From positions 62,001 through 126,000 of the forward strand of contig NZ_JAAGVY010000004.1 in NCBI RefSeq assembly GCF_010686655.1: DNA of 64,000 nucleotides. The letters are read 5' to 3'. Both the position numbers and the translations under genes were made by a program. Below are positions 1 to 42,808 of the stretch, one piece after another; the stretch's first letter is position 1, and each line of letters opens with the position of its first letter. Source of the DNA: Cryomorpha ignava. GTDB lineage: Bacteria; Bacteroidota; Bacteroidia; Flavobacteriales_D; Cryomorphaceae. The notes under the pieces were generated by a model. It was not told the DNA's origin. It searched no databases and saw only the letters and a list, made by a program, of their open reading frames with translations.

Positions 1-2
1 AC

Positions 3-380
3 GATTTACTAAGACATGAATATGGACATTATTTGCAAAGCCAAGAAGTAGGCCCGATTTATATTACGAAATTCGGAATCCCTAGTTTACTATCCATAGA
101 CGGATCTCATGATTATCATCCAGTAGAGCAAGATGCTAATATTCGTGGCTTGAAATATTTTCGCAAAAAAGATGGCAGTAATCCTTGGAATACTACGAGC
201 TATCCGATTCTTGGATTTGATGATACAACGCCATACAGTTCAGCCAACAACCAACAAGCCTTAAAAGCCGGTCGAATACGGACTACGGGGTGGGACTATT
301 TGCCAGGCTGGCGTTTTCTTCCTCAAACGATTTATTACACAATAAAGTATAGACAAGAACAAAAGGAAAATACACCATGA
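3..380 (+). CDS. C-terminal tail of an Rhs/YD-repeat-type protein (5' partial)
   Basis: The frame is open from the first bases of the window, so the start lies upstream. The first visible residues read DLLRHEYGHYLQSQEVGP and include an HEYGH sequence that fits the HExxH zinc-metallopeptidase pattern. About 125 residues are visible. Tails with this HEYGHYLQ signature are, as I recall, common at the variable C-termini of Rhs repeat proteins in Bacteroidota. The Rhs core fragment found at 832-1182 supports that context. The stop overlaps the start of the lipoprotein at 377 (ATGA), as expected for a co-translated pair. Toxin activity is an inference, because the core of the protein is not in view. 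Confidence 0.6.
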   Translation, partial: DLLRHEYGHYLQSQEVGPIYITKFGIPSLLSIDGSHDYHPVEQDANIRGLKYFRKKDGSNPWNTTSYPILGFDDTTPYSSANNQQALKAGRIRTTGWDYLPGWRFLPQTIYYTIKYRQEQKENTP

Positions 381-832
381 GAACCTATATAACTGCAGTA
401 CTTATATTTGGCTGGCTTTTATTCACAGCCAACTCTTGTAAAGAAGATGATAACGGTTGCCCTGCGTCATTTATCAATAAGCAAGACGATAGACTTCAAG
501 TGAGAAACAATCATGCTTTTGGAATTGTCCATCAATTTATTTTCCACTATCCTGATACCAATATTTATAATTCAGATGTTATTGCAGATGATTCCGATAA
601 TAACAAAACACTAGCGTCCGGTGAATCGGGTCGAATTTCGTACGGAAGATGTTGGGAAAATATTTTTTCACGAGAAATCGATTCAGATACCCTCCTAATT
701 TTTTCCTACAGTTTAGATACTCTCAATTTAAAAGGATGGGATTATATCGTTTCAAATTACGCTGTGTTAGATCGTAAAACCTATAGTTTGCAAGATTTAC
801 AGAACAATAATTGGCTGATCGAATTGCCGTGA
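377..832 (+). CDS. Small lipoprotein, candidate partner or immunity protein of the Rhs tail
   Basis: A 151-residue protein with an N-terminal hydrophobic segment (residues about 5-20) followed by a lipobox-like ANSC and an acidic KEDD stretch. This is a typical Bacteroidota lipoprotein export signal. The rest is soluble, with no family I recognise. Its ATG overlaps the stop of the preceding Rhs-type tail, so the two are likely translationally coupled. Small lipoproteins directly behind polymorphic toxin tails are often immunity or anchoring proteins, but nothing in the sequence proves that here. The gene ends exactly where a displaced Rhs core fragment begins (about 832), which suggests a recombination junction. 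Confidence 0.65.
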   Translation: MRTYITAVLIFGWLLFTANSCKEDDNGCPASFINKQDDRLQVRNNHAFGIVHQFIFHYPDTNIYNSDVIADDSDNNKTLASGESGRISYGRCWENIFSREIDSDTLLIFSYSLDTLNLKGWDYIVSNYAVLDRKTYSLQDLQNNNWLIELP

Positions 833-1302
833 CAACAGGATGGGAAGTGTTGGATCTTGACGCGCGGTTTTACGATCCGCAGTTAGGTAAATGGTTCACG
901 CCAGACCCGGCAGAGCAGTTTGCTAATCCGTATTTGGCTATGGGGAGGACGAAGCGTGAAGAATCGCTCCGGGGGAGCGATTTAGCTTCGGGCCAGCCTG
1001 CAAGGGAAGCGGTGATGTATGTAGACCCTGATGGGGAGTTTGTTCTTGGAATTGGCAGAGGGTTTCTTGATACAGTTTTTAGTGGGGGATTAGAATTTTG
1101 TAACGCTGACCAAGCCTATGTTGGGAAAGCTTGGCGGGAAGCTGTAGTTATCGCCACAAACTACAATTTTTTTCACCTTTGACGATACAAAAGTAACTAT
1201 CCTTCTTTTGTTGTCGAACCGGATGAATACAGAAAACCTCTAATCAAAGAAACAAATAAGGACGGACACCATATTTTAGTGGGCGCTCTAACTCGGTTTT
1301 GA
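832..1302 (+). pseudogene. Displaced Rhs core domain plus decayed C-terminal tip
   Basis: The frame beginning at the lipoprotein stop encodes an Rhs-associated core signature: ARFYDPQLGKWFTPDP, then NPYLAMG, then VMYVDPDGE. It has no start codon of its own (the only initiator is a TTG at 811, inside the lipoprotein gene in another frame) and no upstream YD repeats, so it is an orphan core/tip. The usual short link between YLAMG and VMYVDPDGE is replaced by about 22 residues encoded by a palindromic DNA insertion. The frame stops at 1180-1182. In the same frame 38 more coherent codons follow, to a TGA at 1300-1302, so the tip looks interrupted and degraded. Displaced tips behind active Rhs genes are known as silent toxin cassettes in other bacteria. 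Confidence 0.65.
943..1008 (+). repeat. In-frame palindromic insertion inside the Rhs core
   Basis: This stretch replaces the two or three residues normally found between YLAMG and VMYVDPDGE. It contains a strong hairpin: AATCGCTCC (962-970) and GGAGCGATT (974-982) around a GGG loop, flanked by CGAAGC (950-955) and GCTTCG (985-990). The insertion keeps the reading frame and adds about 20 charged residues. It resembles, in concept only, palindromic elements known to insert in-frame into genes, such as those of Rickettsia. Confidence 0.6.
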
Positions 1303-1465
1303 GTGCAGTCGCAAGGCAGCAAGGAAACATCGAGGGTTGATTCTTTGTCTCATAATTAAAGTAAACTAACAATGGGTAATTTTTATGTAATCCATCAAAT
1401 CATAGAAAGAAATTCCTTTTTCCCCTTTTTTCACAACGATATAAACCTCATAAGCCACCTAATCT

Positions 1466-2050
1466 CTACCCCCTCTCCTCCAAAACATCTTCTATTTCTT
1501 TAAGCTTAAATCCCTTTGCTTTCAGTAAAATTAAATAGTGATACAGCAAATCTGCCGCTTCATTTTTAAACAGTTCTGGATTGTTGTCTTTGGCTTCTAT
1601 CACCAATTCTACAGCTTCTTCGCCAACTTTCTGGGCTACTTTGTTGATTCCCCTTTTGTATAATTTGTTGGTATATGACGTTTCTACATCTTCATCAATC
1701 CGCTGGTGAATGGTTTGCTCTAGTTCGTATAAAAATGATCTGGAAGATTTTGTGTTAAAGCAGGAAACAGAGCCTGTGTGGCAGGTTGGGCCATCTGCTT
1801 TCGCCAATATCAACAATGAGTCATTATCGCAGTCTAAATGCACATCTTTTACATGCAGAAAATTACCCGAAGTCTCCCCTTTCGTCCATAAGCGATTTTT
1901 GCTTCTGCTGAAGAAAGTTACTTTTTTCTCTGCAAGCGTTTTGGAATACGCTTCTTCATTCATATATCCCAGCATTAGAACCTGCTGGCTGCTGCTGTCT
2001 TGTATTACAACCGGAATCAAACCGTTTGTCTTTGAAAAATCGGGAATCAT
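1466..2050 (-). CDS. hisI: Phosphoribosyl-AMP cyclohydrolase / phosphoribosyl-ATP pyrophosphatase (HisIE)
   Basis: A bifunctional enzyme of 194 residues that catalyses the second and third steps of histidine synthesis. The N-terminal cyclohydrolase half shows [18 protein letters not shown], a metal-binding LDCDND near residues 72-77, and GPTCHTG near 87-93. The C-terminal pyrophosphatase half shows [14 protein letters not shown] and a [10 protein letters not shown] helix, as in MazG-like PRA-PPH. Length matches other fused HisIE proteins. It is the last gene of the his operon, and its ATG overlaps the hisF stop by 4 bp. I see no clear terminator hairpin downstream. Confidence 0.95.
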
Positions 2051-2802
2051 AATCGGATTGGAATATTTTGTGTTTCTAAAAATTGTTTGAGTTCCGGAAT
2101 TGGGATTTCACCAAAATGGAATACACTGGCTGCAAGTGCTCCAGTAGCCTTAGTTTTGGTAAAAACTTCCGCAAAATGTGCTTTGCTTCCAGCGCCACCC
2201 GAAGCGATAACAGGAACTGAAACAGCTTCGGAAACCCGGCCGGTAATATCACAGGCAAACCCGTTTTTGGTTCCGTCGTTGTTCATAGAAGTCAATAAGA
2301 TTTCTCCGGCACCCAGCTCAGTTCCTATTTTCGCCCAATCCACAGCTTTTAATTCGGTTGCAATTCGGCCGCCGCTTCGGAACACCATCCACTCATTGTC
2401 TACAAACTTCGCGTCGATAGCCAATACCACGCATTGATTTCCAAATGTGTTGGCAATTTCTGATATCAGATCGGGCCGCAGAATGGCAGAAGAATTGATG
2501 CTGATTTTGTCGGCTCCTGACCCAATAATAGCTTTGGCATCTTCCAGACTGTTGATGCCGCCGCCCACCGTAAAGGGAATATTGATTTCAGCAGCTATCC
2601 TGTTAACCAACTTGGTGAGCGTTTTTCGCTTTTCCAACGTAGCCGTAATATCGAGAAAAACCAATTCATCAGCGCCTTCTTCCACGTAGCGTTGCGCCAG
2701 TTCTATAGGATCGCCGGCATCTCTGATGTTTTCAAAATTGATTCCTTTCACCGTCCTGTTGTTTTGAATATCCAGGCAGGGAATAATTCGTTTTTTTAGC
2801 AT
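2047..2802 (-). CDS. hisF: Imidazole glycerol phosphate synthase cyclase subunit HisF
   Basis: A 251-residue TIM barrel that, with HisH, converts PRFAR and ammonia into imidazole glycerol phosphate and AICAR. It begins [20 protein letters not shown], carrying the catalytic Asp in the first strand (D11). A second catalytic Asp is expected in VLAIDAKF near residue 130. Phosphate-binding loops VGGGI and ASGGAG are present. It overlaps hisA by 7 bp and hisI by 4 bp. The subunit partner, HisH, is two genes upstream in the same operon. Confidence 0.96.
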
Positions 2803-3515
2803 TTTAAATCGATTAGCTCTTTGAGATCAATCGTTCCTTCGTAAATCGCTTTTCCAATAATAGCGCCTTCGCAACCCAATTCTTTCAGTTGAACAACATC
2901 GGCAAGGGTTGTAATTCCACCACTCGCTATGAGCTTCGTTTTTTTGGTAGCCGAAAGAATTTCCTTATACAGATCGAAAGCGGGGCCCAAAAGCATTCCA
3001 TCCTTATCGATATCGGTTACGATCGCATATTTAGCGCCTGATTTTTCATATCCCTGAATAAATGAAACGACATCTTGCTCACTGCTTTTCAGCCAACCGT
3101 TCGTCGCAATTTTTCGATTCTTGCAGTCTGCGCCTAATATAATTTTGTCAGCGCCATATTTCTGCAACCATTTCAGCATCAAATAAGGATCTTGGGCAGC
3201 AATACTCCCAATGGTTATTTGCTTTGCACCCGAATTAAAAGCCAATTCAACATCTTCTTCCGTTTTTATTCCACCACCAAAATCGATAATAAGGCTGGTT
3301 TTAGAAGCCAAGGTTTCCAACGTTTTATAATTGACAATTTGATTGGCCTTTGCGCCATCCAGATCTACCAAATGCAGATAGTGGATACCCGAGTCTTCGA
3401 ACATTTGAGCAACTTCCAGCGGATTTTCACTGTATGTTTTTTGGGTTGCGTAATCGCCTTTCGAAAGCCTTACGCATTTTCCGTCTATGATGTCTATGGC
3501 TGGTATAATTCTCAT
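2796..3515 (-). CDS. hisA: ProFAR isomerase HisA
   Basis: A 239-residue half-barrel-duplicated TIM barrel that isomerises ProFAR to PRFAR. It starts [20 protein letters not shown], with the catalytic Asp in AIDIIDG, and has the second-half counterpart VTDIDKDGM. The phosphate loops IDFGGGI and ASGGIT are visible. It is a homologue of HisF, directly downstream. The start overlaps the hisH stop by 4 bp, consistent with coupled translation. Confidence 0.96.
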
Positions 3516-4090
3516 AATTTCAAAAAGTTTTTTAATAGCTGAATCCCAACATCTGCCGATTTCTCGGGGTGAAATTGGGTTGCATAAAAATTGTCTTTCT
3601 TCAAAGCGGCACTAAAAGGCAATATATAATCGGTTACCGCAATGGTTTCTTTACAAATTTCGGCATAGTAACTATGCACAAAATAGAAGTCGTTTCGCGC
3701 TTGAATGTTTTCAAAAAGCTTACTCTTCATAGAAGTAAAGTTGTTCCATCCTGTATGTGGCACCAGATCTTTAGGCGGAAATTGCTTTACTTGCGTTTCG
3801 AAAATGCCCAATCCAAGTGTATCGCCTTCTTCAGAATAAGTACACATCAATTGCATGCCCAGGCAGATTCCAAGCACGGGCTGCTTGAGCGCTTTTATCA
3901 CTTCATCGAGTCCTTTTTCTTTTAGATGCCGCATCGCAGAGCCGGCCTCTCCCACTCCCGGGAAAATCACCTTATCTGCCGACTCCAAGATTGAATTGTC
4001 GTCCGTAATCACAGTTGAATATCCCAGTTTATTTATGGCATTTTCTACCGAAGTCACATTGCCGGCATTGTATTTCAAGATGGCTATCAT
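3512..4090 (-). CDS. hisH: Imidazole glycerol phosphate synthase glutaminase subunit HisH
   Basis: A class I glutamine amidotransferase of 192 residues that feeds ammonia to HisF. The catalytic triad is visible: Cys76 in [10 protein letters not shown], and the His and Glu of TQFHPEKS near the C-terminus. The oxyanion strand [11 protein letters not shown] is also present. Length is normal for the family. It overlaps hisB upstream and hisA downstream by 4 bp each. Confidence 0.96.
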
Positions 4091-5178
4091 AATGTTCCTT
4101 TTGTACTTGGTATGTTGTATATCTCTGTTTTATTCACAGCCATTTTTACCGCTTTCGCGAATGCCTTAAAAATCGATTCAATTTTGTGGTGCTCATTTTC
4201 TCCTTCGGCTTTGATATTGAGATTACAGCGTGCCTGATCGCTAAAAGATTTGAAAAAATGGAAAAATAGTTCAGTCGGTACATCCCCTACTTTTTCTCTT
4301 TTGAAATCTGCTTCCCATACCAGCCACGGGCGTCCGCCAAAATCAATGGCTACTTGTGCCAGGCAGTCGTCCATTGGCAATAAAAATCCATAACGCTCTA
4401 TTGCTTTTTTGCTTCCCAACGCTTTTAAAAAGGAATCGCCCAGAGCAATAGCAGTATCTTCTATGGTGTGGTGCTCGTCAATCTCCAAATCGCCCTTTAC
4501 ATTTATCGCCAGATCGATATTTCCGTGTTTGGAAATCTGTTCAAGCATGTGGTCAAAAAAGGGCAATCCAGTTTCAATCGAAGATTTTCCACTGCCATCT
4601 AAGTTCACTTCAATTGAAATTTCTGTTTCAAGAGTTTTCCGAGTCACTTTCCCAATTCTCGGGATGGCTTTCAGATAGCGGTAAATTTCATTCCAATCTT
4701 GTGTGACTAATGTGGCGACTACAGAACTATTTTCCTGGATAAAGATTGACTTTGAACCCAAATTTTCAGCCAGTTGCACATCTGTTTTTCGATCTCCGAT
4801 TACGTAAGAGTTTACCAAATCGTAATCTCCGTACACGTATTTTCCAAGCATCCCCAATTGCGGTTTTCGAGTGGGCTTGTTTTCATGCTCAAAAGATGGA
4901 TCAACATAAACATCAGCGAAGTTTACCCCTTCGTTTTTTAATGTTTGAATAATGAAATTCTGAACCGGGTGGAAAGTGTTTTCCGGAAAAGAATCCGTTC
5001 CCAATCCATCCTGATTGGTGACCATAACAAATTCGTAGTTTAATTCTTTGGCAATTCGGGCCAGGCTGCTTATTGCATTCGGTAGAAACTCCAATTTTGC
5101 GAAACTGTCAATTTGCTCATCCTTGGGTTCCTTGATGATGGTTCCGTCTCTGTCTATAAATAAAACTTTCTTAGTCAT
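4087..5178 (-). CDS. hisB: Bifunctional histidinol-phosphatase / imidazoleglycerol-phosphate dehydratase HisB
   Basis: A 363-residue fusion. The N-terminal HAD phosphatase domain has the motif FIDRDGTII (nucleophile D9, acid/base D11) and a later [12 protein letters not shown] motif. It dephosphorylates histidinol phosphate. The C-terminal half, from about residue 175, is the dehydratase, with the metal-binding [14 protein letters not shown] and [14 protein letters not shown] stretches. This fused arrangement is known in enterobacteria and many Bacteroidota. It overlaps hisC upstream by 8 bp and hisH downstream by 4 bp. Confidence 0.96.
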
Positions 5179-6208
5179 TGCTTATCTTTTCTAATGCGAT
5201 TAGTAATTTTTGATTCTCATTTGCTGATCCAACTGTAATTCTCAAACAATTCTTCACAACCGAATTCCGATTTCTGATAATGACTTTTTGGTTTACCAAT
5301 TTGAAATACAAATCATCGGCATCATCAACTTCAACCAACAAAAAATTGGCATCAGATGGATATATTTTTCGAATGATTTTTAAAGACTGAAGGCTGGTAA
5401 TCAGTTTTTCCTTTTCGTCTAATATTTCTCTTAGATTTTTCCGGAAGCCAGCTTCATCATTCAATGTTTCCAAAGCGGCTTCCTGGTTCGCCGAGCTTAT
5501 ATTGTAAGGTGGTTTCACTTTCGTGAAAAACGACAAGATCTCTTCGCTCATAAAAGCAATCCCCAGTCGAATTCCTGCCAATCCCCAGGCTTTGCTCAAT
5601 GTTTGACTGATAATCAGATTTGGATAAGTGCTTAGTTTTTCGAGAAAGGAAGCCTGATCAGCAAAATCAATATACGCTTCGTCCAAAATGACAATCCCAT
5701 TGAAATTTGCCAGAATAAATTCGATATCGGCTGATTTCAAATGATTTCCAGTTGGATTGTTGGGCGAACAGAGAAAAATCAATTTCAAATGATCATCTTT
5801 AAAAAATGGCTGCAAGCTTTTTCTGTCAATTTGAAATTCACTGTTCAATGGCAGTTTTATAAGTTCTACCGCATTGATATTTGCCGATACTTCATACATG
5901 CCATAGGTTGGCGTAAAAGTCAAGGCCTTGTCCTGATTGGGTTCGCAGAATATTCTAAACGCAATGTCAATTACTTCATCGCTTCCATTTCCTAAAAAGA
6001 TTTTCTCGGGGCTGATTTTCTTCAATTCTGCCAGCCGCAGTTTCAACTTTGTCTGATTGGGATCGGGATAGCGGTTGTAAATTCCAAATGGATTTTCATT
6101 GGCATCTAAAAAGACGCCTTCGTTTCCGGTATATTCTTCTCTCGCACTTGAATAAGGCGCCAGAGTTCGGATGCTTTTTCTGACCAGCTCTTGGATACTA
6201 TTTTTCAT
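5171..6208 (-). CDS. hisC: Histidinol-phosphate aminotransferase HisC
   Basis: A PLP-dependent fold-type I aminotransferase of 345 residues that transfers an amino group from glutamate to imidazole-acetol phosphate. The N-terminal LDANENPFG signature, the CSPNNPTGN stretch, the [11 protein letters not shown] strand and the Schiff-base lysine in [12 protein letters not shown] are all visible. The start overlaps the end of hisD by 11 bp. Its position before hisB matches the hisGDCB order common in this phylum. Confidence 0.95.
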
Positions 6209-7490
6209 CTTCGATCTTTTTCAAACGGATAGAAACCGCATTTTTATGTCCAAATAGCTGTTCGGCTTCAGCCATAATTTCAACGGTCTTGCCAATGTTT
6301 TGCAAACCTTTCGCAGTAATTTTCTGAAAGGTGATTTTCTTTAGAAAGCTATCTAAAGAAACGCCGCTATAGCTCCGTGCATATCCGTTGGTAGGCAGGG
6401 TGTGATTGGTTCCGCTCGCATAATCTCCGGCACTTTCGCATGAGTAATTGCCCAGAAAAACAGAACCCGCATTTTGAATTTTATCTGCATAGCCTTCAGC
6501 ATCTTCTATTGCCAGAATCAAATGTTCAGGCGCATATACATTGCTGAAATCGATGCACTGCTCAATGAAATTAAACAGAATTGAAAAACTATTATCCAGG
6601 GCTTTTTTAGCCATTTCTGCTCTGGGCAGAACGCCAATCTGACTTTTTAATGCATCAGTGACCTTCGCAATTAAAGAAGAATCAGTTGTTACCAATACCA
6701 CTTGACTATCCGCTCCGTGCTCGGCTTGTGACAATAAGTCTGAAGCCACAAAATCAGCATCCGCGCTGGCATCTGCAATGACAAGCACTTCGCTGGGCCC
6801 GGCTGGCAAGTCGATTGCCACACCGCTTTGCTGCACCAACTCTTTGGATTTTGTTACATACTGATTTCCCGGTCCGTATATTTTATCCACTTTGGCAATG
6901 CTTTCGGTTCCATATGCCAATGCTGCAATGGCTTGTGCTCCGCCCACTTTGTACATTTCTGTTATGCCCAAAAAAGATGCAGTGTATAAAATAGCAGGAT
7001 TAATATCCCCATTTTTGTCAGTGGGTGTGCATAAAGCAATGTGCTTACAACCTGCAATTTGAGCTGGAACGGCAAGCATCAAAATGGTTGAAAAAAGTGG
7101 TGCAGTGCCTCCCGGAATATACAAGCCCACATTTTCAATCGCCACGTTTTTTCGCCAGCAGCTCACACCGGGCATCGTTTCTACAGGTACTTCGGCACTT
7201 TGCTGCGAAAGGTGAAAAGTTCGAATATTCTTCGCAGCAACCGAAATAGCTTCTTTTAATTCTGTAGGCACTTGGGTGGCTGCCAACTCAATTTCCGAAA
7301 TGCTCACTTTCAAATCTTCGATTTCTACCCGGTCAAACTGCAAAGCAAATTCTTTTAAAGCCTTATCACCATTAAGCTTTACGTCGTTGATAATCTTCCT
7401 GACTTGTTCTTCCAGATTTTCTGAAGCCATAATCGGCCTTTGACTAATCGAAGCCCATTCACTCAAGGGCGGATTTGTGTATGTTTTCAT
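6198..7490 (-). CDS. hisD: Histidinol dehydrogenase HisD
   Basis: NAD- and zinc-dependent enzyme of 430 residues that oxidises L-histidinol to histidine in two steps. Visible family signatures are PGGTAPLFST, GPGNQYVTKSK, LPAGPSEVLV, SQAEHGADSQ (metal-ligand His), YAPEHL (catalytic Glu/His) and SGTNHTLPT. The ATG at 7490 (MKTYTNPPL) is chosen because the open frame upstream of it is only a read-back into hisG and has unlikely composition. With this start there are 17 bp between hisG and hisD, the only real gap in the operon. Confidence 0.95.
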   Translation of the reverse strand: MKTYTNPPLSEWASISQRPIMASENLEEQVRKIINDVKLNGDKALKEFALQFDRVEIEDLKVSISEIELAATQVPTELKEAISVAAKNIRTFHLSQQSAEVPVETMPGVSCWRKNVAIENVGLYIPGGTAPLFSTILMLAVPAQIAGCKHIALCTPTDKNGDINPAILYTASFLGITEMYKVGGAQAIAALAYGTESIAKVDKIYGPGNQYVTKSKELVQQSGVAIDLPAGPSEVLVIADASADADFVASDLLSQAEHGADSQVVLVTTDSSLIAKVTDALKSQIGVLPRAEMAKKALDNSFSILFNFIEQCIDFSNVYAPEHLILAIEDAEGYADKIQNAGSVFLGNYSCESAGDYASGTNHTLPTNGYARSYSGVSLDSFLKKITFQKITAKGLQNIGKTVEIMAEAEQLFGHKNAVSIRLKKIEDEK

Positions 7491-7507
7491 CTTGTAGTTC
7501 TCTACTT

Positions 7508-8365
7508 TTAAACAATCATTTTTTCTATCGGCACCACCAGAATGCCTTCTGCTCCTGCATCTTTGAGTGCATCTATGACATCCCAAAACTTATCTTCACC
7601 AATGACAGAGTGCAGACTACTCCACCCCTCTTTGGCCAAAGGAAGAATGGTTGGACTGTTCATCCCCGGAAGGATTTTTACAATTTTATCCAGCTTCTCA
7701 TTGGGAGCATTCAGTAGAATATATTTGCTCTCTTTGGCCTTTTGAACAGCCCGAATACGGAATAACAACTTGTTTAAGATGGCCTGCTTTTCTGCTTCCA
7801 GATTTCCGGAAGTAACTAAAACAGCCTGACTGCTCATTACTTTTTCCACTTCTTTCAGTCCATTGGAAAGTAAGGTGCTTCCACTGCTTACAATGTCGCA
7901 GATCCCTGCTGCCAAGCCTATTCCGGGAGCGATCTCCACACTTCCCGAAATGAATTCGATGGTTGCGTTTATATCGTTCTGCTCAAAATAGTCTGATAAA
8001 ATGTTTGGATAGGAAGTAGCCACCTTCTTTCCATTGAAATACGCCAAATCGGGGTAGTCTATCTCTTTGGGAACAGCCAGGCTCAATCGGCAAGCAGAGA
8101 ATCCCAATTTTTCAACAATGGTAATGTTCTTCCGACTTTCTAAAAGTACATTTTCGCCAATAACACCAATGTCGGCAACACCTTGGTCAACATATTCCGG
8201 AATATCATCATCGCGCAGAAACAAAACTTCCACTGGGAAATTGGTGGATTCAGTAATCAGTTTACCACCGCCATTTGGAAGTTTAATACCACATTCTTCG
8301 ATAAGTTGAATGGATTTTTCGCTTAGTCTGCCACTCTTTTGAATGGCGATTTTCAATTTACTCAT
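7508..8365 (-). CDS. hisG: ATP phosphoribosyltransferase HisG (long form)
   Basis: First committed enzyme of histidine synthesis. It joins ATP and PRPP and is feedback-inhibited by histidine. The protein is 285 residues from the ATG at 8365 (MSKLKIAIQKSGRLSEKS); longer upstream reading would run into the attenuator. The PRPP-loop-like SSGSTLLSNGLKEV and the GVIGEN strand are present. The extra C-terminal region (KILPGMNSPTILPL onward) is the regulatory ACT-like domain of long-form HisG, so no HisZ partner is expected. It is the first structural gene of the operon and lies about 50 bp after the leader terminator. Confidence 0.95.
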   Translation of the reverse strand: MSKLKIAIQKSGRLSEKSIQLIEECGIKLPNGGGKLITESTNFPVEVLFLRDDDIPEYVDQGVADIGVIGENVLLESRKNITIVEKLGFSACRLSLAVPKEIDYPDLAYFNGKKVATSYPNILSDYFEQNDINATIEFISGSVEIAPGIGLAAGICDIVSSGSTLLSNGLKEVEKVMSSQAVLVTSGNLEAEKQAILNKLLFRIRAVQKAKESKYILLNAPNEKLDKIVKILPGMNSPTILPLAKEGWSSLHSVIGEDKFWDVIDALKDAGAEGILVVPIEKMIV

Positions 8366-8415
8366 TTTCTCTTTTTTAAAAATGTTTGAGTAAATCTGAA
8401 GCGGAAAAGTGCTGA

Positions 8416-8452
8416 AAAACAAAAATCCCGCCTGATTTACTCAAACGGGATT
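8416..8452 (-). terminator. Intrinsic terminator of the his attenuator
   Basis: Read on the minus strand, AATCCCGTTTGA pairs with TCAGGCGGGATT around a GTAAA loop. The 12-bp stem has two G-U pairs and is followed by TTTGTTTTT. It lies between the leader peptide stop (8480) and hisG (8365), where an attenuator terminator must be. A competing upstream pairing is possible: GATATT near 8482 with AATATC near 8455 would extend to the 5' arm of the terminator. Confidence 0.88.
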
Positions 8453-8479
8453 AGATATTTTAGTTACTGCATATCAATA

Positions 8480-8530
8480 TCACCTCGCTTGAGCGAAAAA
8501 ATGATGATGATGATGCAAGTTATTATACAT
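8480..8530 (-). CDS. hisL: His operon leader peptide with five consecutive His codons
   Basis: A 16-codon minus-strand frame starts with ATG at 8530 and ends with TGA at 8482-8480. The peptide is MYNNLHHHHHFFAQAR, with five CAT histidine codons in a row. It sits just downstream of a promoter and just upstream of a strong intrinsic terminator and hisG. This is the layout of histidine attenuation, where a ribosome stalled on His codons for lack of charged tRNA-His prevents terminator folding. The match in composition, position and following terminator makes chance unlikely. Confidence 0.88.
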   Translation of the reverse strand: MYNNLHHHHHFFAQAR

Positions 8531-8550
8531 TTTTTTGTTGTTTCGAAGGG

Positions 8551-8579
8551 CAAATGTAGGGAAATTTCTTCTTGTGCAA
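8551..8579 (-). promoter_or_regulatory. Promoter of the his operon (Bacteroidota type)
   Basis: On the minus strand TTG (8579-8577) is followed after 18 bases by TACATTTG (8558-8551). This matches the -33 TTG and -7 TAnnTTTG boxes of the phylum. Transcription would begin near 8544, about 14 bp before the leader ATG. Confidence 0.75.
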
Positions 8580-8589
8580 GTTTTTTTTC

Positions 8590-9081
8590 TTATTTCAATT
8601 CTATTCTGTCAATTACAAGTTTGAAGTCTTCGGCTTTTTTATTTCCTATCAGGAAGGCAATTTCTTCAATAGATTCATGCGAAAAATTGGGCTGGTCAAG
8701 TATCTGGCCCCTAAATCTGGGGTACATTTCTTTTAATGAAATTTCGATTTCCTGCCATTCCCCAGAAGTTAAAAATGGTGCGATGTACGAATAATCATCT
8801 GATGCTTTTGCCTTAATCCGAAGCTGATATTTTTTACCATCACCCCGCAGTTTTACTGAAATTTTGGTGTATTCTGATACAATTATCCTTTGAAATCGAG
8901 AACGTACCGACGAGAATCCACCATTGTTATCATGCGATATGCTGCCTGCGAAAACAACATAGCCATCTGCATTCAATTTAAAACTACCTGATGACTTCCC
9001 TCCCATCACAACATCATCTACAACAGTCCAGTTGCTCAGATCAGTCAGGCTTTTAAAATCAACAATTACTTTTGAATTCAT
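8590..9081 (-). CDS. CIA30-family protein
   Basis: A 163-residue soluble protein with the features of the complex I intermediate-associated protein 30 family: an N-terminal VIDF-like strand, NWTVVDDVVMGGKSSGSF, a GSISHDNNGGFSSVRS segment and the C-terminal VIDRIEL strand. Members have a galactose-binding-like jelly-roll fold. In bacteria their role is unknown and probably not tied to complex I. No signal peptide is visible. It lies upstream of the his promoter on the same strand but is separated from it, so it is probably its own unit. Family call is confident, function is not. Confidence 0.8.
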   Translation of the reverse strand: MNSKVIVDFKSLTDLSNWTVVDDVVMGGKSSGSFKLNADGYVVFAGSISHDNNGGFSSVRSRFQRIIVSEYTKISVKLRGDGKKYQLRIKAKASDDYSYIAPFLTSGEWQEIEISLKEMYPRFRGQILDQPNFSHESIEEIAFLIGNKKAEDFKLVIDRIELK

Positions 9082-9157
9082 AGATTAAGGTTATCGTTCA
9101 AACAGGTTTCTGGGTCAATTAAATCGATATCAGTTGTGTACTTCTCATTTAACTATA

Positions 9158-9434
9158 TTAGAAGTCATATTGTTTGAAAACTGCATCCGCAATTGCCCTT
9201 ACCTGATCAATCATAATTGCACTTTCGCTTTTCAGGCCACCCGTCCCTTTATTCAAATTAACTCTTAAGATGCTCACCCCATCCTTGATATCCATCGTAA
9301 TCGGACAGATAACTGAAGATGGATGCAACCGATTCAAAATGTCACTTTGATCAATCAGCACTGGTGTTGTTCTCCTGGTTTCTGTGCCGAATTTTGGATT
9401 GAGATCGGCCTACCATATTTTATACTGCTTAATT
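9158..9434 (-). pseudogene. Broken MazF/PemK-type toxin gene
   Basis: The open part (9158-9410) reads ADLNPKFGTETRRTTPVL, then HPSSVICPIT and SESAIMIDQVRAI, the core of MazF/PemK endoribonucleases. Upstream, homologues would continue as KQYKIWL. Here the codon before ADLN is TAG (9413-9411), where a Leu codon is expected, and the bases before it fit KQYK only after a one-base frameshift. No in-frame start remains, and an internal start at 9361 would remove the conserved N-terminal strand. The intact antitoxin-like gene at 9429-9659 sits directly upstream, as in a normal mazEF pair. Confidence 0.75.
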
Positions 9435-9659
9435 GCATTCTCCCAAAGCTTCAAATTCCTTCACTACATTCATAGAATCAGCTGCAACCAATTTGGACTC
9501 TTTTGTAAGCTGCTCTTCAATTCGTTTTCGCTTTTGATACTTATTGTAAAACTCCATAGCATCGTTGATATATTTGTTTCTGCTAATTTTTAAATGATCT
9601 AGTATTTTCTCTGTTTCCTTGAGAATTGGCTCATGCAATTTTACTGAAATACTTTTCAT
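9429..9659 (-). CDS. Ribbon-helix-helix-type antitoxin
   Basis: A 76-residue protein beginning MKSISVKLHEPILKETEKIL, a short strand followed by amphipathic helices as in ribbon-helix-helix DNA-binding antitoxins. A highly charged helical tail (YQKRKRIEEQLTKES) would embrace the toxin. It lies directly before the MazF-like remnant and ends where the toxin gene should begin, so the pair is a former toxin-antitoxin module. With the toxin broken it is an orphan antitoxin. Confidence 0.7.
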   Translation of the reverse strand: MKSISVKLHEPILKETEKILDHLKISRNKYINDAMEFYNKYQKRKRIEEQLTKESKLVAADSMNVVKEFEALGECN

Positions 9660-10046
9660 ATCGATCTATTATCCATAAAAGGTATATCAATTATTTATAT
9701 TATTCAAGAGATACTATCGGCTTTTATATTTTATTACAATAGTAGAGAAACAAGCGGTGCGTCATGTCAGAAATATCTATAAGCAGTTTAAGCGCATTTA
9801 TCAATTATTCGATTTCGGCGGTTACTTGATAGTTTCTTTAGACAAACATGAACTCAATTCTTAGCCAAAACTTGTCGACCGTAATTTCCGCCGCGAGAGA
9901 GCATTCCACCAACTTGTAATACTTCGGAATTTTATAGTCCAACTTCACAATGAAAACAAAAATAAGCTATAAACGACTAACACCCATTGCTTATTTTTCA
10001 TGCCTGCCTGTTTTTTAGGTATTCAAGAGAACGCTTCGCTAAGATG
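9660..10046. other. Intergenic stretch with the left flank of a duplicated segment
   Basis: No gene is visible. From about 9926 the sequence (GGAATTTTATAGTCCAACTT and then about 90 bp up to 10046) is nearly repeated at 11266-11440. The last 30 bp before the heptamer array (GGTATTCAAGAGAACGCTTCGCTAAGATG) are identical in both copies. Before 9926 I see nothing. Confidence 0.6.
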
Positions 10047-10140
10047 CCTATTGCATATTGCCCATTGCTTATTGCTCATTGCCTATTGCATATTGCCTAT
10101 TGCATATTGCCCATTGCTTATTGCCCATTGCCCATTGCCC
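10047..10140 (+). repeat. Heptanucleotide array, YATTG type, copy 1
   Basis: Thirteen consecutive 7-bp units of the form C-N-N-A-T-T-G (CCTATTG, CATATTG, CCCATTG, CTTATTG, CTCATTG) run without a break. The same units occur in the array at 11441. Translation gives meaningless [10 protein letters not shown]-like repeats in all frames. Confidence 0.95.
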
Positions 10141-10147
10141 AAAAAAC

Positions 10148-10206
10148 TCACCTAACCAACTTCCGCTTAACATCCAAATAAGACTTATAAATAGGCTGAC
10201 CCGCTT
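10148..10206 (-). pseudogene. Orphan 3' end of a second beta-helix lipoprotein gene
   Basis: On the minus strand this encodes [17 protein letters not shown] followed by TGA. The intact gene at 11671 ends [17 protein letters not shown]. The two ends differ at two residues and at four synonymous codons, so this looks like the end of a diverged paralogue and not a fresh copy. Upstream homology stops at about 10207. It is followed, like the intact gene, by the heptamer array. Confidence 0.75.
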
Positions 10207-10421
10207 CGCCGCGTCCGTACGGAGTCACTTCGATCCTGAGTCCGCATTGCTTAGTAACAATGCTGCGTAATCTCACCAAGACCCCTAATGCTTTAATATT
10301 AAAAAAAAACGATATAACTTCCATGGCAAGTAATCTTTCCCAGATCTCCAACCGCTCTAAATTCCGGGAAGTACAGCTATTTTAGCATTTATAACACTTG
10401 GAAATCAGGTGATTATATTCA

Positions 10422-10469
10422 GTGTACAGAAGTACTAAGTACACCGAACAGATAAAATTCGTATTTTTG
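10422..10469 (+). promoter_or_regulatory. Promoter and candidate operator of the toxin-antitoxin pair
   Basis: TATTTTTG at 10462-10469 fits the -7 consensus and lies 24 bp before the antitoxin ATG. Upstream is an inverted repeat, GTGTAC (10422-10427) and GTACAC (10439-10444), with AGTACT between them. Its place over the -33 region suits autorepression, which is typical of such modules. No separate -33 TTG is visible. Confidence 0.5.
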
Positions 10470-10492
10470 GAATGTTTATAAAAAGCTGCCTC

Positions 10493-10720
10493 ATGAATTT
10501 ACTGAACCGAATTACCATAGATCCTGAAATATGCCATGGAAAACCTTGTATACGTGGAATGCGATGGCCCATTGAGCTGGTAATTGATATGCTTGGGTCG
10601 GGTATGGATATGGGCGATATTCTTAGCGATCATCCGGAATTGGAAAAAGAAGATATTCTTGCTTGTTTGCAATATGCCAAGCTTTCACTCTCGGGAAAGA
10701 ATATTCAAAAAGTAGCTTAA
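10493..10720 (+). CDS. DUF433-family antitoxin
   Basis: A 75-residue protein, MNLLNRITIDPEICHGKPCI and onward, with the DUF433 signature CHGKPCIRGMRWPIELVIDML and the ILSDHPELEKEDILACLQYA helix pair. DUF433 proteins are small winged or helix-turn-helix-like antitoxins paired with PIN-like DUF5615 nucleases. The ATG at 10493 is chosen over the upstream one because the family begins just before the ITIDPE strand. Its stop overlaps the toxin start (TAATG at 10718-10722). The pair lies between two repeat segments, which suggests acquisition or local rearrangement. Confidence 0.85.
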   Translation: MNLLNRITIDPEICHGKPCIRGMRWPIELVIDMLGSGMDMGDILSDHPELEKEDILACLQYAKLSLSGKNIQKVA

Positions 10721-11082
10721 TGAAGTTTCTGTGTGATGTTCATATTTCATTCCGCATAGTGAGACATCTTGAATCTTTAGGCTATGAATCCTTTCATGTA
10801 AATGAAATTCTAAACAAGTGGAACACGAAGGATAAAGAAATTTGCATTTATGCAGATAAAAATGATTTAATTGTACTGACTAAAGATGCCGATTTCAGAA
10901 ATAGCTTTCTTATTGATGGCACTCCGAATAAATTAGTGAAAATTAATCTCGGTAATATATCTACAAATGCTTTAATTGAAGCTATTTCGGAAAATATTGA
11001 AGCGGTGAAGTTATTGGATTCTAAAGGCGCGTTCATGATTGAGATTGACCAAAATTCTGCTACATTCATTCTGAATTCGTAA
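10720..11082 (+). CDS. DUF5615 PIN-like toxin
   Basis: A 120-residue protein beginning MKFLCDVHISFRIVRHLESLGY, a close match to the start of DUF5615/Mut7-C-like PIN nucleases, in which the first Asp is catalytic. Further acidic residues sit in DKNDLIVLTKDADF, the second conserved motif. The ATG at 10720 overlaps the antitoxin stop, giving a classic two-gene module. The longer open frame upstream is a shadow of the antitoxin gene. Substrate is unknown; RNA cleavage is inferred from the fold. Confidence 0.85.
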   Translation: MKFLCDVHISFRIVRHLESLGYESFHVNEILNKWNTKDKEICIYADKNDLIVLTKDADFRNSFLIDGTPNKLVKINLGNISTNALIEAISENIEAVKLLDSKGAFMIEIDQNSATFILNS

Positions 11083-11440
11083 TGGACGCTCAACCGCGTT
11101 TATTCCGTTTGGTCATGCGAAAGTTTCTCTACGCCTCCCAAAGGTCGTAAGTAGCAATGCTGCGGAACTTTCTAAGATATTCCGCTCCGTCGTATTTACT
11201 TGCTTCGCCGCGTGAGAGCGTTCCACTACATACCCACTCCCAAAGGGTCGTAAGTTGCAATCTTGTGGAATTTTATAGTCCAACTTCGTAATGAAAACTA
11301 AAGTAAGTTTCAATGCCATGAAACCATCTTCTCAATTTTCATTATAAAAACGAAAATAGGCTATAAACAACTAACACCCATTGCATATTTTTCATGCCTG
11401 TCTGTTTTTTAGGTATTCAAGAGAACGCTTCGCTAAGATG
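11083..11440. other. Intergenic stretch with dispersed motifs and the left flank of repeat copy 2
   Basis: No gene is visible. It holds the motif ACTTGCTTCGCCGCGTGAGA (from about 11199), seen in related form at 14066-14098 on the other strand and near 9892. It also holds the copy of the segment that precedes array 1: GGAATTTTATAGTCCAACTT from 11266, and GCTATAAACAACTAACACCC onward to 11440. Confidence 0.6.
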
Positions 11441-11568
11441 CCTATTGCATATTGCCCATTGCTTATTGCCCATTGCATATTGCCCATTGCTCATTGCCTA
11501 TTGCCCATTGCTCATTGCCTATTGCTCATTGCCCATCGCCTATTGCATATTGCATATTGCCCATTGCC
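11441..11568 (+). repeat. Heptanucleotide array, YATTG type, copy 2
   Basis: Eighteen 7-bp units of the form C-N-N-A-T-T-G, one with a CG change (CCCATCG). The first four units match array 1 at 10047 in order; later units are shuffled. About five further degenerate units (ATTGCCT, ATCGCCT, ATCGTCT, ATTGCAC) appear at 11629-11663, after a short interruption with the motif TTGAGCGCAGTCGAAATG. The array ends next to the 3' end of the beta-helix gene. Confidence 0.95.
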
Positions 11569-11670
11569 AACTAGCCGAAGCGACCTCACGTGGTTATTGA
11601 GCGCAGTCGAAATGCAGCGCAGCAAGTAATTGCCTATCGCCTATCGTCTATTGCACATTCCCTAAAAAAT

Positions 11671-12837
11671 TCACCTAACAAGCTTCCTCTTAACATCTAA
11701 ATAAGGCTGATAAATAGGCTGCCCGGGCTTTTCCGCATTCACCCAGTTATTCTTAAAGTCGGCAAAGGATGCGCGGGTTTGCTCGATGACTACATAGGGG
11801 CTGTTACTCGATTTTACCCAAGCACCTTCCGGCCACCAGGGGATATTCTTAAACACATAATTACCATTGTTCATAATCCAGATACTTGGGCTGGTTTTGC
11901 TGCCCACCTGCAGGTAGAGGCCATCTACGGTTACTATGCTTCCATTGCTTCTAAAACAAAGTGCGCCATTTGTAGGCACATGCTCCAGATGAAAATTTTC
12001 AATAGAAAAGAGCTTTGCGGTGGTACACTTTTCGGCATCGAAAAATACGGCGTGCTCATTTGGCCAACCTTCAGAAATACAGTCGAGCAGGCGAACACCA
12101 GTACTTTGCAAAATTTTAAACGAGGTGCCGGTGCATTCCTTTTTGTTGTACACTCTACAGCTCTGAACCACCGTATGATTGCACTGCGAGTTGTTAAAGC
12201 TCGTACCTTTCCACTCGTGCTTTCCGGTTTGGCTGTCAACTGCAGAGCGCAGCACAATGCCGTCGTGGCCTACATTTGTTACCAAAATGTTTTCTACTGT
12301 GCTCATCAGGCAAAATACCAAATCAATAGCTGCCGTAGATTGACCAATAAATTCGATGTTGCGAATAACAGTATTGAAGCTGGAGCCGATAAATACGCCG
12401 CGGCTTCCGCCTTCTATCCGGCCAAAATCATGAATGAGGTAACGTGTTTTGTTCCAGATCATTGCCTGGCTTTGATCAGTTGGAATACTGCGAAAAATAT
12501 CAATAGCGCCTTTTGCTTTTAAATTAGCTCCTTGTCCGTTTACAATCACCAAGCTACCCGTTCTCGGTAGCTCCAGACTTTGAGATATGACATAATCGCC
12601 CGGTTCAAAGTTTATCTGTTTTACGGTTTTCATCAGCGCTATTTCGCGGAAACGCGCCCCTACATCATCGCCTGGTCGAATAGTAATCACTGATGCGCTA
12701 TTTTCTACAGCCGCACCTGCCCTTCTATGCGGTGCATCAGGCGTATTTTCCGCATCTTTGCGCACCACAGCGCCGGCGCAACCCATTAATACGATCAGCA
12801 ACAGCGTGGTATAAAGTATAACTTGTTTAAAGGTCAT
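11671..12837 (-). CDS. Lipoprotein with a right-handed beta-helix (pectate-lyase-like) domain
   Basis: A 388-residue exported protein. The N-terminus is a hydrophobic segment ending in a lipobox (VLMGC, Cys near residue 19). Then come short repeating turns of a parallel beta-helix: ITIRPGDDVGARFREIAL, FEPGDYVISQSLELP, VIRNIEFIGQST, TVENILVTNVGHDGI. This resembles pectate-lyase/polygalacturonase-like folds, but I see no catalytic set, so the substrate is unknown. The ATG at 12837 is preferred because it puts the lipobox at the right distance. It shares 2 bp of its start codon with the divergent CoA-transferase gene. Its last 17 codons are duplicated at 10148-10206. Confidence 0.75.
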   Translation of the reverse strand: MTFKQVILYTTLLLIVLMGCAGAVVRKDAENTPDAPHRRAGAAVENSASVITIRPGDDVGARFREIALMKTVKQINFEPGDYVISQSLELPRTGSLVIVNGQGANLKAKGAIDIFRSIPTDQSQAMIWNKTRYLIHDFGRIEGGSRGVFIGSSFNTVIRNIEFIGQSTAAIDLVFCLMSTVENILVTNVGHDGIVLRSAVDSQTGKHEWKGTSFNNSQCNHTVVQSCRVYNKKECTGTSFKILQSTGVRLLDCISEGWPNEHAVFFDAEKCTTAKLFSIENFHLEHVPTNGALCFRSNGSIVTVDGLYLQVGSKTSPSIWIMNNGNYVFKNIPWWPEGAWVKSSNSPYVVIEQTRASFADFKNNWVNAEKPGQPIYQPYLDVKRKLVR

Positions 12838-42749: not shown

Positions 42750-42808
42750 TTAATCCTTGGGTTAAAACCCAAGGCTAAAATAACTGTCGTCCTTACAGGA
42801 CTGCAAAA
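42750..42808 (-). repeat. REP-like palindromic element, inverted copy
   Basis: Read on the minus strand: CAGTCCTGTAAGGACGACAG, then TTATTTTAGCCTTGGGTTTT and AACCCAAGGATTAAAG. It matches the unit at 42463 in order and sequence but with CCTTGGGTT/AACCCAAGG in place of CCACGGGTT/AACCCGTGG. The two lie in opposite orientation about 200 bp apart. Confidence 0.75.

Follow-up and report, generated by a model that had tools for sequence, protein, structure and literature searches.

We suggest a model in which the his operon of Cryomorpha ignava is regulated by a leader RNA that would act at two layers. In the first layer, the position of a ribosome on a short His-rich leader frame would determine whether a terminator forms upstream of hisG and, based on comparative evidence and on folds with a modelled ribosome, we are highly confident that the hisGDC(NB)HAF(IE) operon has a histidine attenuator of the ribosome-mediated kind. 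In the second layer, an additional arm between the terminator and hisG, referred to as segment 5, could act as a translational second lock on hisG; we give this layer an even chance of operating precisely as described below, while we consider it probable that the attenuator is combined with some translational role of segment 5. The parts lie on the minus strand of the window, i.e. the 64,000-nt stretch of contig NZ_JAAGVY010000004.1 that was analysed here, and are listed in the order of transcription. In this region, the initial annotation had recognised the parts of an attenuator, while it had overlooked the strong core of the antiterminator, the arm further downstream and the fact that the operon is of horizontal origin.

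8551..8579, minus strand: putative Bacteroidota-type promoter, with TTG at 8579-8577, 18 nt, and TACATTTG at 8558-8551 (direct reading)
8480..8530, minus strand: leader peptide frame MYNNLHHHHHFFAQAR, 16 codons, from ATG at 8530 to TGA at 8480 (direct reading, homologues)
8466..8520, minus strand: predicted protector or pause hairpin (segments 1:2), His codons with GATATTGATATGC (minimum-energy fold)
8486..8493, minus strand: segment 2, CTCAAGCG, in the last codons of the leader; 5' arm of the antiterminator (fold with masked 5' part)
8441..8452, minus strand: segment 3, terminator 5' arm; CGTTTGAG (8447-8440) doubles as the antiterminator 3' arm
8434..8446, minus strand: segment 3L, GTTTGAGTAAATC, comprising the upper 5' arm, the loop and 2 nt of the 3' arm; resembles the hisG start
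8424..8435, minus strand: segment 4, terminator 3' arm TCAGGCGGGATT (covariation)
8415..8423, minus strand: U-rich terminator tail (direct reading, terminator scan)
8384..8396, minus strand: segment 5, GATTTACTCAAAC, complementary to 3L (13 nt) and to the hisG start (9 nt)
8356..8364, minus strand: segment 6, UGAGUAAAU at the start of hisG, with U and G of the AUG

The histidine leader and its conservation

The arrangement originally described, with a TTG-N18-TACATTTG promoter, a 16-codon MYNNLHHHHHFFAQAR frame and a 12-bp terminator followed by hisG, is borne out in all its parts by direct reading of the minus strand. The five CAT codons of the leader are at 8515-8501, and CAYCAYCAYCAY, which covers this run, occurs once in the window with 0.08 matches expected by chance. 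The leader RNA as a whole folds much better than shuffled sequences (z -5.2). Among 86 relatives, TAnnTTTG is present 5' of the leader start in 71, as opposed to 9 of 86 on the reverse complement, and is mostly separated from the start codon by 22-28 nt; the strict pattern TTG-N17-21-TAnnTTTG was found in 51 of these loci versus 3 in the control.

We compared 97 regions upstream of hisG, 80 of them from named GTDB loci and 17 from a set of 60 genomes of the same order, and scored a leader as His-rich if a short frame contained at least 4 His within 7 residues. Absence of the His run or of the terminator in relatives had been named beforehand as the observation that would speak against an attenuator; a His-rich leader is present 5' of hisG in 88 of the 97 loci, and 86 of these 88 also have a terminator hairpin. 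At the same threshold, the opposite-strand control gave 0/97, counted before the loci were reoriented. After strand orientation, genomes of the window's own family also carry the His leader and, in a sample of 395 genomes of the phylum, a His-rich frame precedes hisG at 23 of 30 hisG loci. Three loci on contigs labelled Pyrinomonadaceae/Acidobacteria (L038, L046 and L066) also have His-rich frames before hisG, and two of the three show a hairpin and a U-run as well.

At least two sequence types can be told apart among the leader RNAs. The window belongs to type 1, with CCCGTCTGAGTAAATCAGACGGG terminators, and other types have, for instance, GGCTTACC terminators in Chitinophagales. In the phylum scan, a covariance model built on type 1 has matches in 64 of the 395 genomes, and the strong matches for which a hisG position is listed lie upstream of hisG at a distance of no more than a few hundred bases (e.g. 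in genomes G290 and G396 and in the window genome, G000). Two further matches, on contig 33 of the window's own genome, lack a His leader; they are CCCCGTCTGAAATCAGACGGGG terminators of the ordinary kind and were set aside.

Pause hairpin, antiterminator and terminator

The terminator (8452-8424, minus strand) has 12 pairs including two G-U pairs, a 5-nt loop and then TTTGTTTTT, and it is the strongest of the 10 terminators found in positions 1-12000, the remaining nine having at most 7 pairs. In 43 type-1 leaders, its helix is kept in 95.5% of cells and covaries (0.266 versus 0.139 in shuffles, 0/500). The antiterminator core pairs 8493-8486 with 8447-8440; the corresponding alignment columns (44-51/109-116) are kept in nearly all of the 43 relatives, and one pair shows 10 double changes from G-C to A-U. 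The initial annotation had proposed a pairing of GATATT with AATATC as the antiterminator; this pairing is present in the window but is only a poorly conserved extension (37.6% of cells) of the helix, the core of which is CTCAAGCG/CGTTTGAG. As is required in his-type attenuators, the antiterminator overlaps both the 5' arm of the terminator and the end of the leader frame. In the relatives, 82% of cells keep the protector helix (columns 22-36/54-67), and compensatory changes are scarce; we have moderate confidence in this predicted hairpin, which would include the regulatory codons. Across 86 loci, which include other leader types with unrelated sequence, the leader tail pairs with its own terminator arm at a mean of -12.8 kcal/mol, with the arms of other loci at -9.9 and with shuffles at -7.7.

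When the full read-through RNA is folded at equilibrium, the states of the ribosome are not separated and the 3:4 terminator always forms, with P(3:4) of 0.93-0.98. In attenuators in general, the choice of fold is kinetic; here, too, both layers would have to be decided kinetically because the equilibrium fold is always 3:4. Since equilibrium folding is blind to the state of the ribosome, we used transcripts ending before segment 4, in which the ribosome was modelled on the His codons, at the stop codon or absent, together with constrained folds. Sequestration of the terminator 5' arm is predicted to be higher with the ribosome on the His codons than at the stop codon in 86 of 86 loci. The arm is sequestered to 0.70 with the ribosome on the His codons, to 0.13 with the ribosome at the stop codon and to 36% without a ribosome; the values for the window are 0.81, 0.21 and 0.39, respectively. 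This uniform response suggests that the leader works like a classical ribosome-mediated His attenuator. Together with the leaders and terminators of the relatives, these modelled folds support the earlier proposal that ribosome stalling may operate here as in enterobacterial his operons.

In the first layer of the model, plentiful His-tRNA would allow the ribosome to run to the leader stop codon and to cover segment 2, in which case the 3:4 terminator would form and halt transcription. By contrast, if His-tRNA is scarce, the ribosome would stall on the CAT run and segment 2 would take segment 3 (CTCAAGCG/CGTTTGAG), letting the polymerase read through. While the 2:3 and 3:4 helices are conserved and covary in sequence, the stalling of the ribosome and the resulting antitermination are what we infer from them. 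An attenuator of this kind, kept across Bacteroidota, would imply that, in this phylum, the leading ribosome stays near enough to RNA polymerase for attenuation by a leader peptide to work; this question is usually argued from E. coli and B. subtilis.

An additional arm between the terminator and hisG

Segment 5 lies outside the interval of the initial annotation and, in the window, 18 nt before the hisG ATG. Its sequence GATTTACTCAAAC (8396-8384) is the reverse complement of GTTTGAGTAAATC (8446-8434). With segment 5 windows selected by the best match to 3L, the arm is found at p<=0.01 in 45 of 50 type-1 loci versus 1 of 35 other loci, and in 25 of 37 further loci from the phylum scan. About 20 of 83 type-1 loci are without a clear segment 5, and it is therefore not essential. 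In one locus from a Bacteroidia MAG (L059), the gap between terminator and hisG contains a palindromic insertion of roughly 80 nt in place of the segment 5 region.

For 3L:5, 94.1% of cells keep the pairing and 42 cells have double changes (12.2 in shuffles), the compared sequences being related and their kinship not being removed by the shuffle controls. Its covariation score is 0.320 and falls to at most 0.07 when the register is slid, collapsing already at one base. Among the mismatches in the first 12 pairs, G-U outnumbers A-C by 45:2, which argues for pairing in RNA and not for a DNA palindrome. Moreover, segment 5 is 13-20 nt away from the hisG ATG in most loci but lies at widely varying distances from the terminator, and this difference ties segment 5 to the translation of hisG.

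Segment 5 can also pair with the start of hisG. UGAGUAAAU (8364-8356) is complementary to AUUUACUCA within segment 5; thus, the terminator loop imitates the start of the gene. In the read-through mRNA, segment 5 is predicted to cover the start region of the first gene, and this 5:6 pairing covaries: 90.9% of cells keep it, double changes occur in 23 cells versus 9.9 in shuffles, and the covariation score is 0.200. Complementarity at p<=0.05 is present in 62 of 70 loci with segment 5 versus 4 of 40 without it. Matched changes are found in L179, L180 and L182, where the loop is GAGTACAT, segment 5 has GTACTC and hisG has ATGAGTACATTA, and in L054 and L065, where a segment 5 with TTTGTTC occurs with starts of GGACAAA or GAACAAA. 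In L054, L065 and L171, the hisG start is a variant one and pairs better with the segment 5 of its own locus than with the common segment 5. Because most hisG starts are alike (own pairs 8.7/10 versus swapped pairs 8.1/10), 5:6 is less well supported than 3L:5; since the start, encoding MSKLK, is strongly conserved, the covariation of 5:6 depends on few variants.

In constrained folds, the hisG start is more open with 3L:5 than with 3:4 (unpaired 0.72 versus 0.42), with an increase in 62 of 63 loci and a change from 0.21 (3:4) to 0.71 (3L:5) in the window. The 3L:5 helix is more stable than 2:3 in 65 of 70 loci and more stable than 5:6 in 68 of 70, while just 31 of 70 loci follow the strict stability order 3:4 > 3L:5 > 2:3. 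That 3L:5 frees the hisG start in these folds and is stronger than 2:3 and 5:6 in most loci is the basis for assigning to segment 5 a possible role in locking and releasing this start.

In the second layer of the model, segment 5, which is transcribed only upon read-through, would have two alternative partners. If read-through is leaky in a histidine-replete cell, the terminator hairpin would be intact and segment 5 would pair with the hisG start and block it. Where the weaker 2:3 helix alone holds segment 3, segment 5 could capture segment 3 via the free TAAATC toehold, leaving the hisG start open. Here, the order of the strand exchange and the effect on hisG translation are what we infer from the two pairings. 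Generalised to many Bacteroidota, segment 5 would be a relay arm that reads the chosen hairpin, with the 5' arm and loop of the terminator imitating the hisG start, and in our estimate the arguments for and against this generalisation are evenly balanced. Such a relay arm would explain the conservation of the terminator loop GAGTAAATC. If the model is correct, termination and translation are both set by one decision of the ribosome, with no need for a Shine-Dalgarno sequence, and the relay arm represents a compact way of silencing leaky read-through where Shine-Dalgarno sequences are little used, in that the start region itself is covered.

The same data can be read without translational control. 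The attenuator might be a plain classical one, in which 3L:5 serves the stability or processing of the read-through mRNA, e.g. as a protective 5' hairpin, and hisG translation is not affected. This is somewhat unlikely in our judgement, but it would account for 3L:5 being longer and better supported than 5:6 and for loci such as L186, in which segment 5 matches 3L and not the start, and the conservation of the hisG start could reflect constraints on the protein or codon usage. It fits less well with the near-constant spacing between segment 5 and the hisG ATG next to a widely variable spacing to the terminator, with the restriction of 5:6 to loci with segment 5, and with the variant starts that suit their own segment 5 better than the common one. 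Because trp leader RNA acting in trans is known from other bacteria, and because the complementarity would work in trans as in cis, we also considered that the terminated leader RNA is a small RNA in which loop 3L pairs with segment 5 of the hisG mRNA and alters its translation or decay. This is improbable: the same mRNA has its own 3L nearby, so that cis pairing should win, and 3L would be mostly locked in the 12-bp stem and 5-nt loop of the released RNA.

Two further explanations dispense with the downstream arm as RNA or with the attenuator altogether. In the first of these, 3L and segment 5 would be half-sites of a DNA operator for a repressor, and indeed they form a 13-bp inverted repeat in the window that is perfect in some loci. 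However, the spacing of the half-sites ranges from about 14 to 56 nt, the two sides change in step as the sequence drifts, and symmetry in DNA predicts equal numbers of G-U and A-C mismatches, in conflict with the ratio observed; based on the variable spacing and this ratio, we rejected the operator, which we hold to be very improbable. The other explanation, that the CAT run is a chance low-complexity repeat and the terminator part of the upstream CIA30 gene, takes its appeal from the end of that gene at 8590 on the same strand as the leader. Yet a promoter lies between CIA30 and the leader, and His runs and terminators occur at hisG throughout the phylum with different codons and RNA sequences; this cross-phylum comparison refutes the explanation, the likelihood of which we regard as negligible. 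We favour the attenuator with a translational role for segment 5.

Known systems and the origin of the operon

The attenuator in the window has in common with enterobacterial hisL (RF00514) a leader frame with His codons, a predicted protector hairpin, an antiterminator and a Rho-independent terminator before hisG of a full operon. It differs from hisL in the Bacteroidota promoter, in having no Shine-Dalgarno-like sequence before the leader, in the sequence of the RNA, and in the extra segment 5 with its pairing to the terminator arm and the hisG start. RF00514 (His_leader) gives 22.2 bits against a gathering score of 49 and is below threshold. Matches to SpF14 and ncr1575 in Rfam, also below threshold, were dropped as chance terminator matches.

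In the trp leader of B. subtilis, the terminator decision by TRAP is backed by a hairpin that blocks the Shine-Dalgarno sequence of trpE on read-through transcripts; there, by contrast to the window, the sensor is a protein and there is no leader peptide. Dual attenuation of transcription and translation is also described for tlrB (yxjB) of B. subtilis (PMC6851288), in which, as predicted for the window, a terminator and a structure further downstream are both under the control of a leader peptide, the latter structure blocking translation of the read-through mRNA. However, tlrB senses tylosin and involves sequestration of a Shine-Dalgarno sequence and NusG pausing, whereas in the window the start codon region would be covered and a terminator arm would imitate that region. 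In another phylum, the Firmicutes, His-leader attenuators with a His-rich leader and a terminator/antiterminator precede his genes, and the parts of the reports considered here mention no downstream arm (PMC9413887, PMC2965389). Position and phylum are shared by the structured 5' element of hisG in Flavobacterium psychrophilum: the sections considered of a transcriptome study of this species (PMC9723704) give clues to leader-peptide attenuation upstream of amino acid operons and note that the hisG element is conserved in Flavobacteriaceae and has no Rfam match, and, as far as these sections of its main text go, no His leader peptide, antiterminator or downstream arm is described for it. As this element had already been flagged there, only the extra arm looks new: the attenuator itself is of a known type with a published hint, and we did not find the relay arm described in the literature searched. 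A comparative study by Lopatovskaya, Seliverstov and Lyubetsky (2010) may already list his leaders of Bacteroidota.

The his genes downstream of the leader are all on the same strand and several overlap.

7508..8365, minus strand: hisG (Pfam HisG, HisG_C; start at 8365)
6198..7490, minus strand: hisD (Pfam Histidinol_dh; start at MKTYT)
5171..6208, minus strand: hisC (Pfam Aminotran_1_2, operon position)
4087..5178, minus strand: hisNB, fusion of phosphatase and IGPD (Pfam IGPD, PNK3P/HAD)
3512..4090, minus strand: hisH (Pfam GATase, operon position)
2796..3515, minus strand: hisA (Pfam His_biosynth, operon position)
2047..2802, minus strand: hisF (Pfam His_biosynth, operon position)
1466..2050, minus strand: hisIE (Pfam PRA-CH, PRA-PH)

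Sequence comparisons indicate that the whole his operon was acquired horizontally together with its attenuator as one unit. By RpoB, the window genome groups with genomes G003, G004 and G006 (89-91% identity) and is 76% identical to F. antarcticum, while its HisG is 81% identical to that of F. antarcticum and about 64-66% identical to those of G003, G004 and G006. Placement of HisG within its own family is rejected (AU p 0.0003), and HisD (76%), HisF (81%) and HisNB (83%) agree with the signal from HisG. Similarly, the leader DNA is closest to those of Empedobacter, Paenimyroides and F. antarcticum, with members of its own family ranking 64th, 79th and 81st of 87. Regulation would thus have travelled with the operon in one piece.

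No hisG was found in 43 of the 60 relatives of the same order. In the window genome, neither ilvD (PF00920) nor prephenate dehydratase (PF00800) gave a match, and his, trp and homoserine dehydrogenase genes are present. From this pattern, amino acid prototrophy seems to be patchy, and transfer would have restored the his operon.

A second leader-peptide attenuator in the window genome lies upstream of trpE (contig C35, L125); it consists of a Trp leader MRINSQNTAWWWLSKSRFGFG and then a GCCCACCGATTCCGGTGGGC terminator and has no obvious segment 5. Within the window, the only Rfam match at gathering level is an Acido-Lenti-1 RNA (RF01687) at 42755-42802 on the plus strand, with 41.2 bits. Finally, two small overlapping genes at 10472-11082 on the plus strand, which by eye resemble a pair of DUF433-type and PIN/DUF5615-like genes, possibly form a toxin-antitoxin module.
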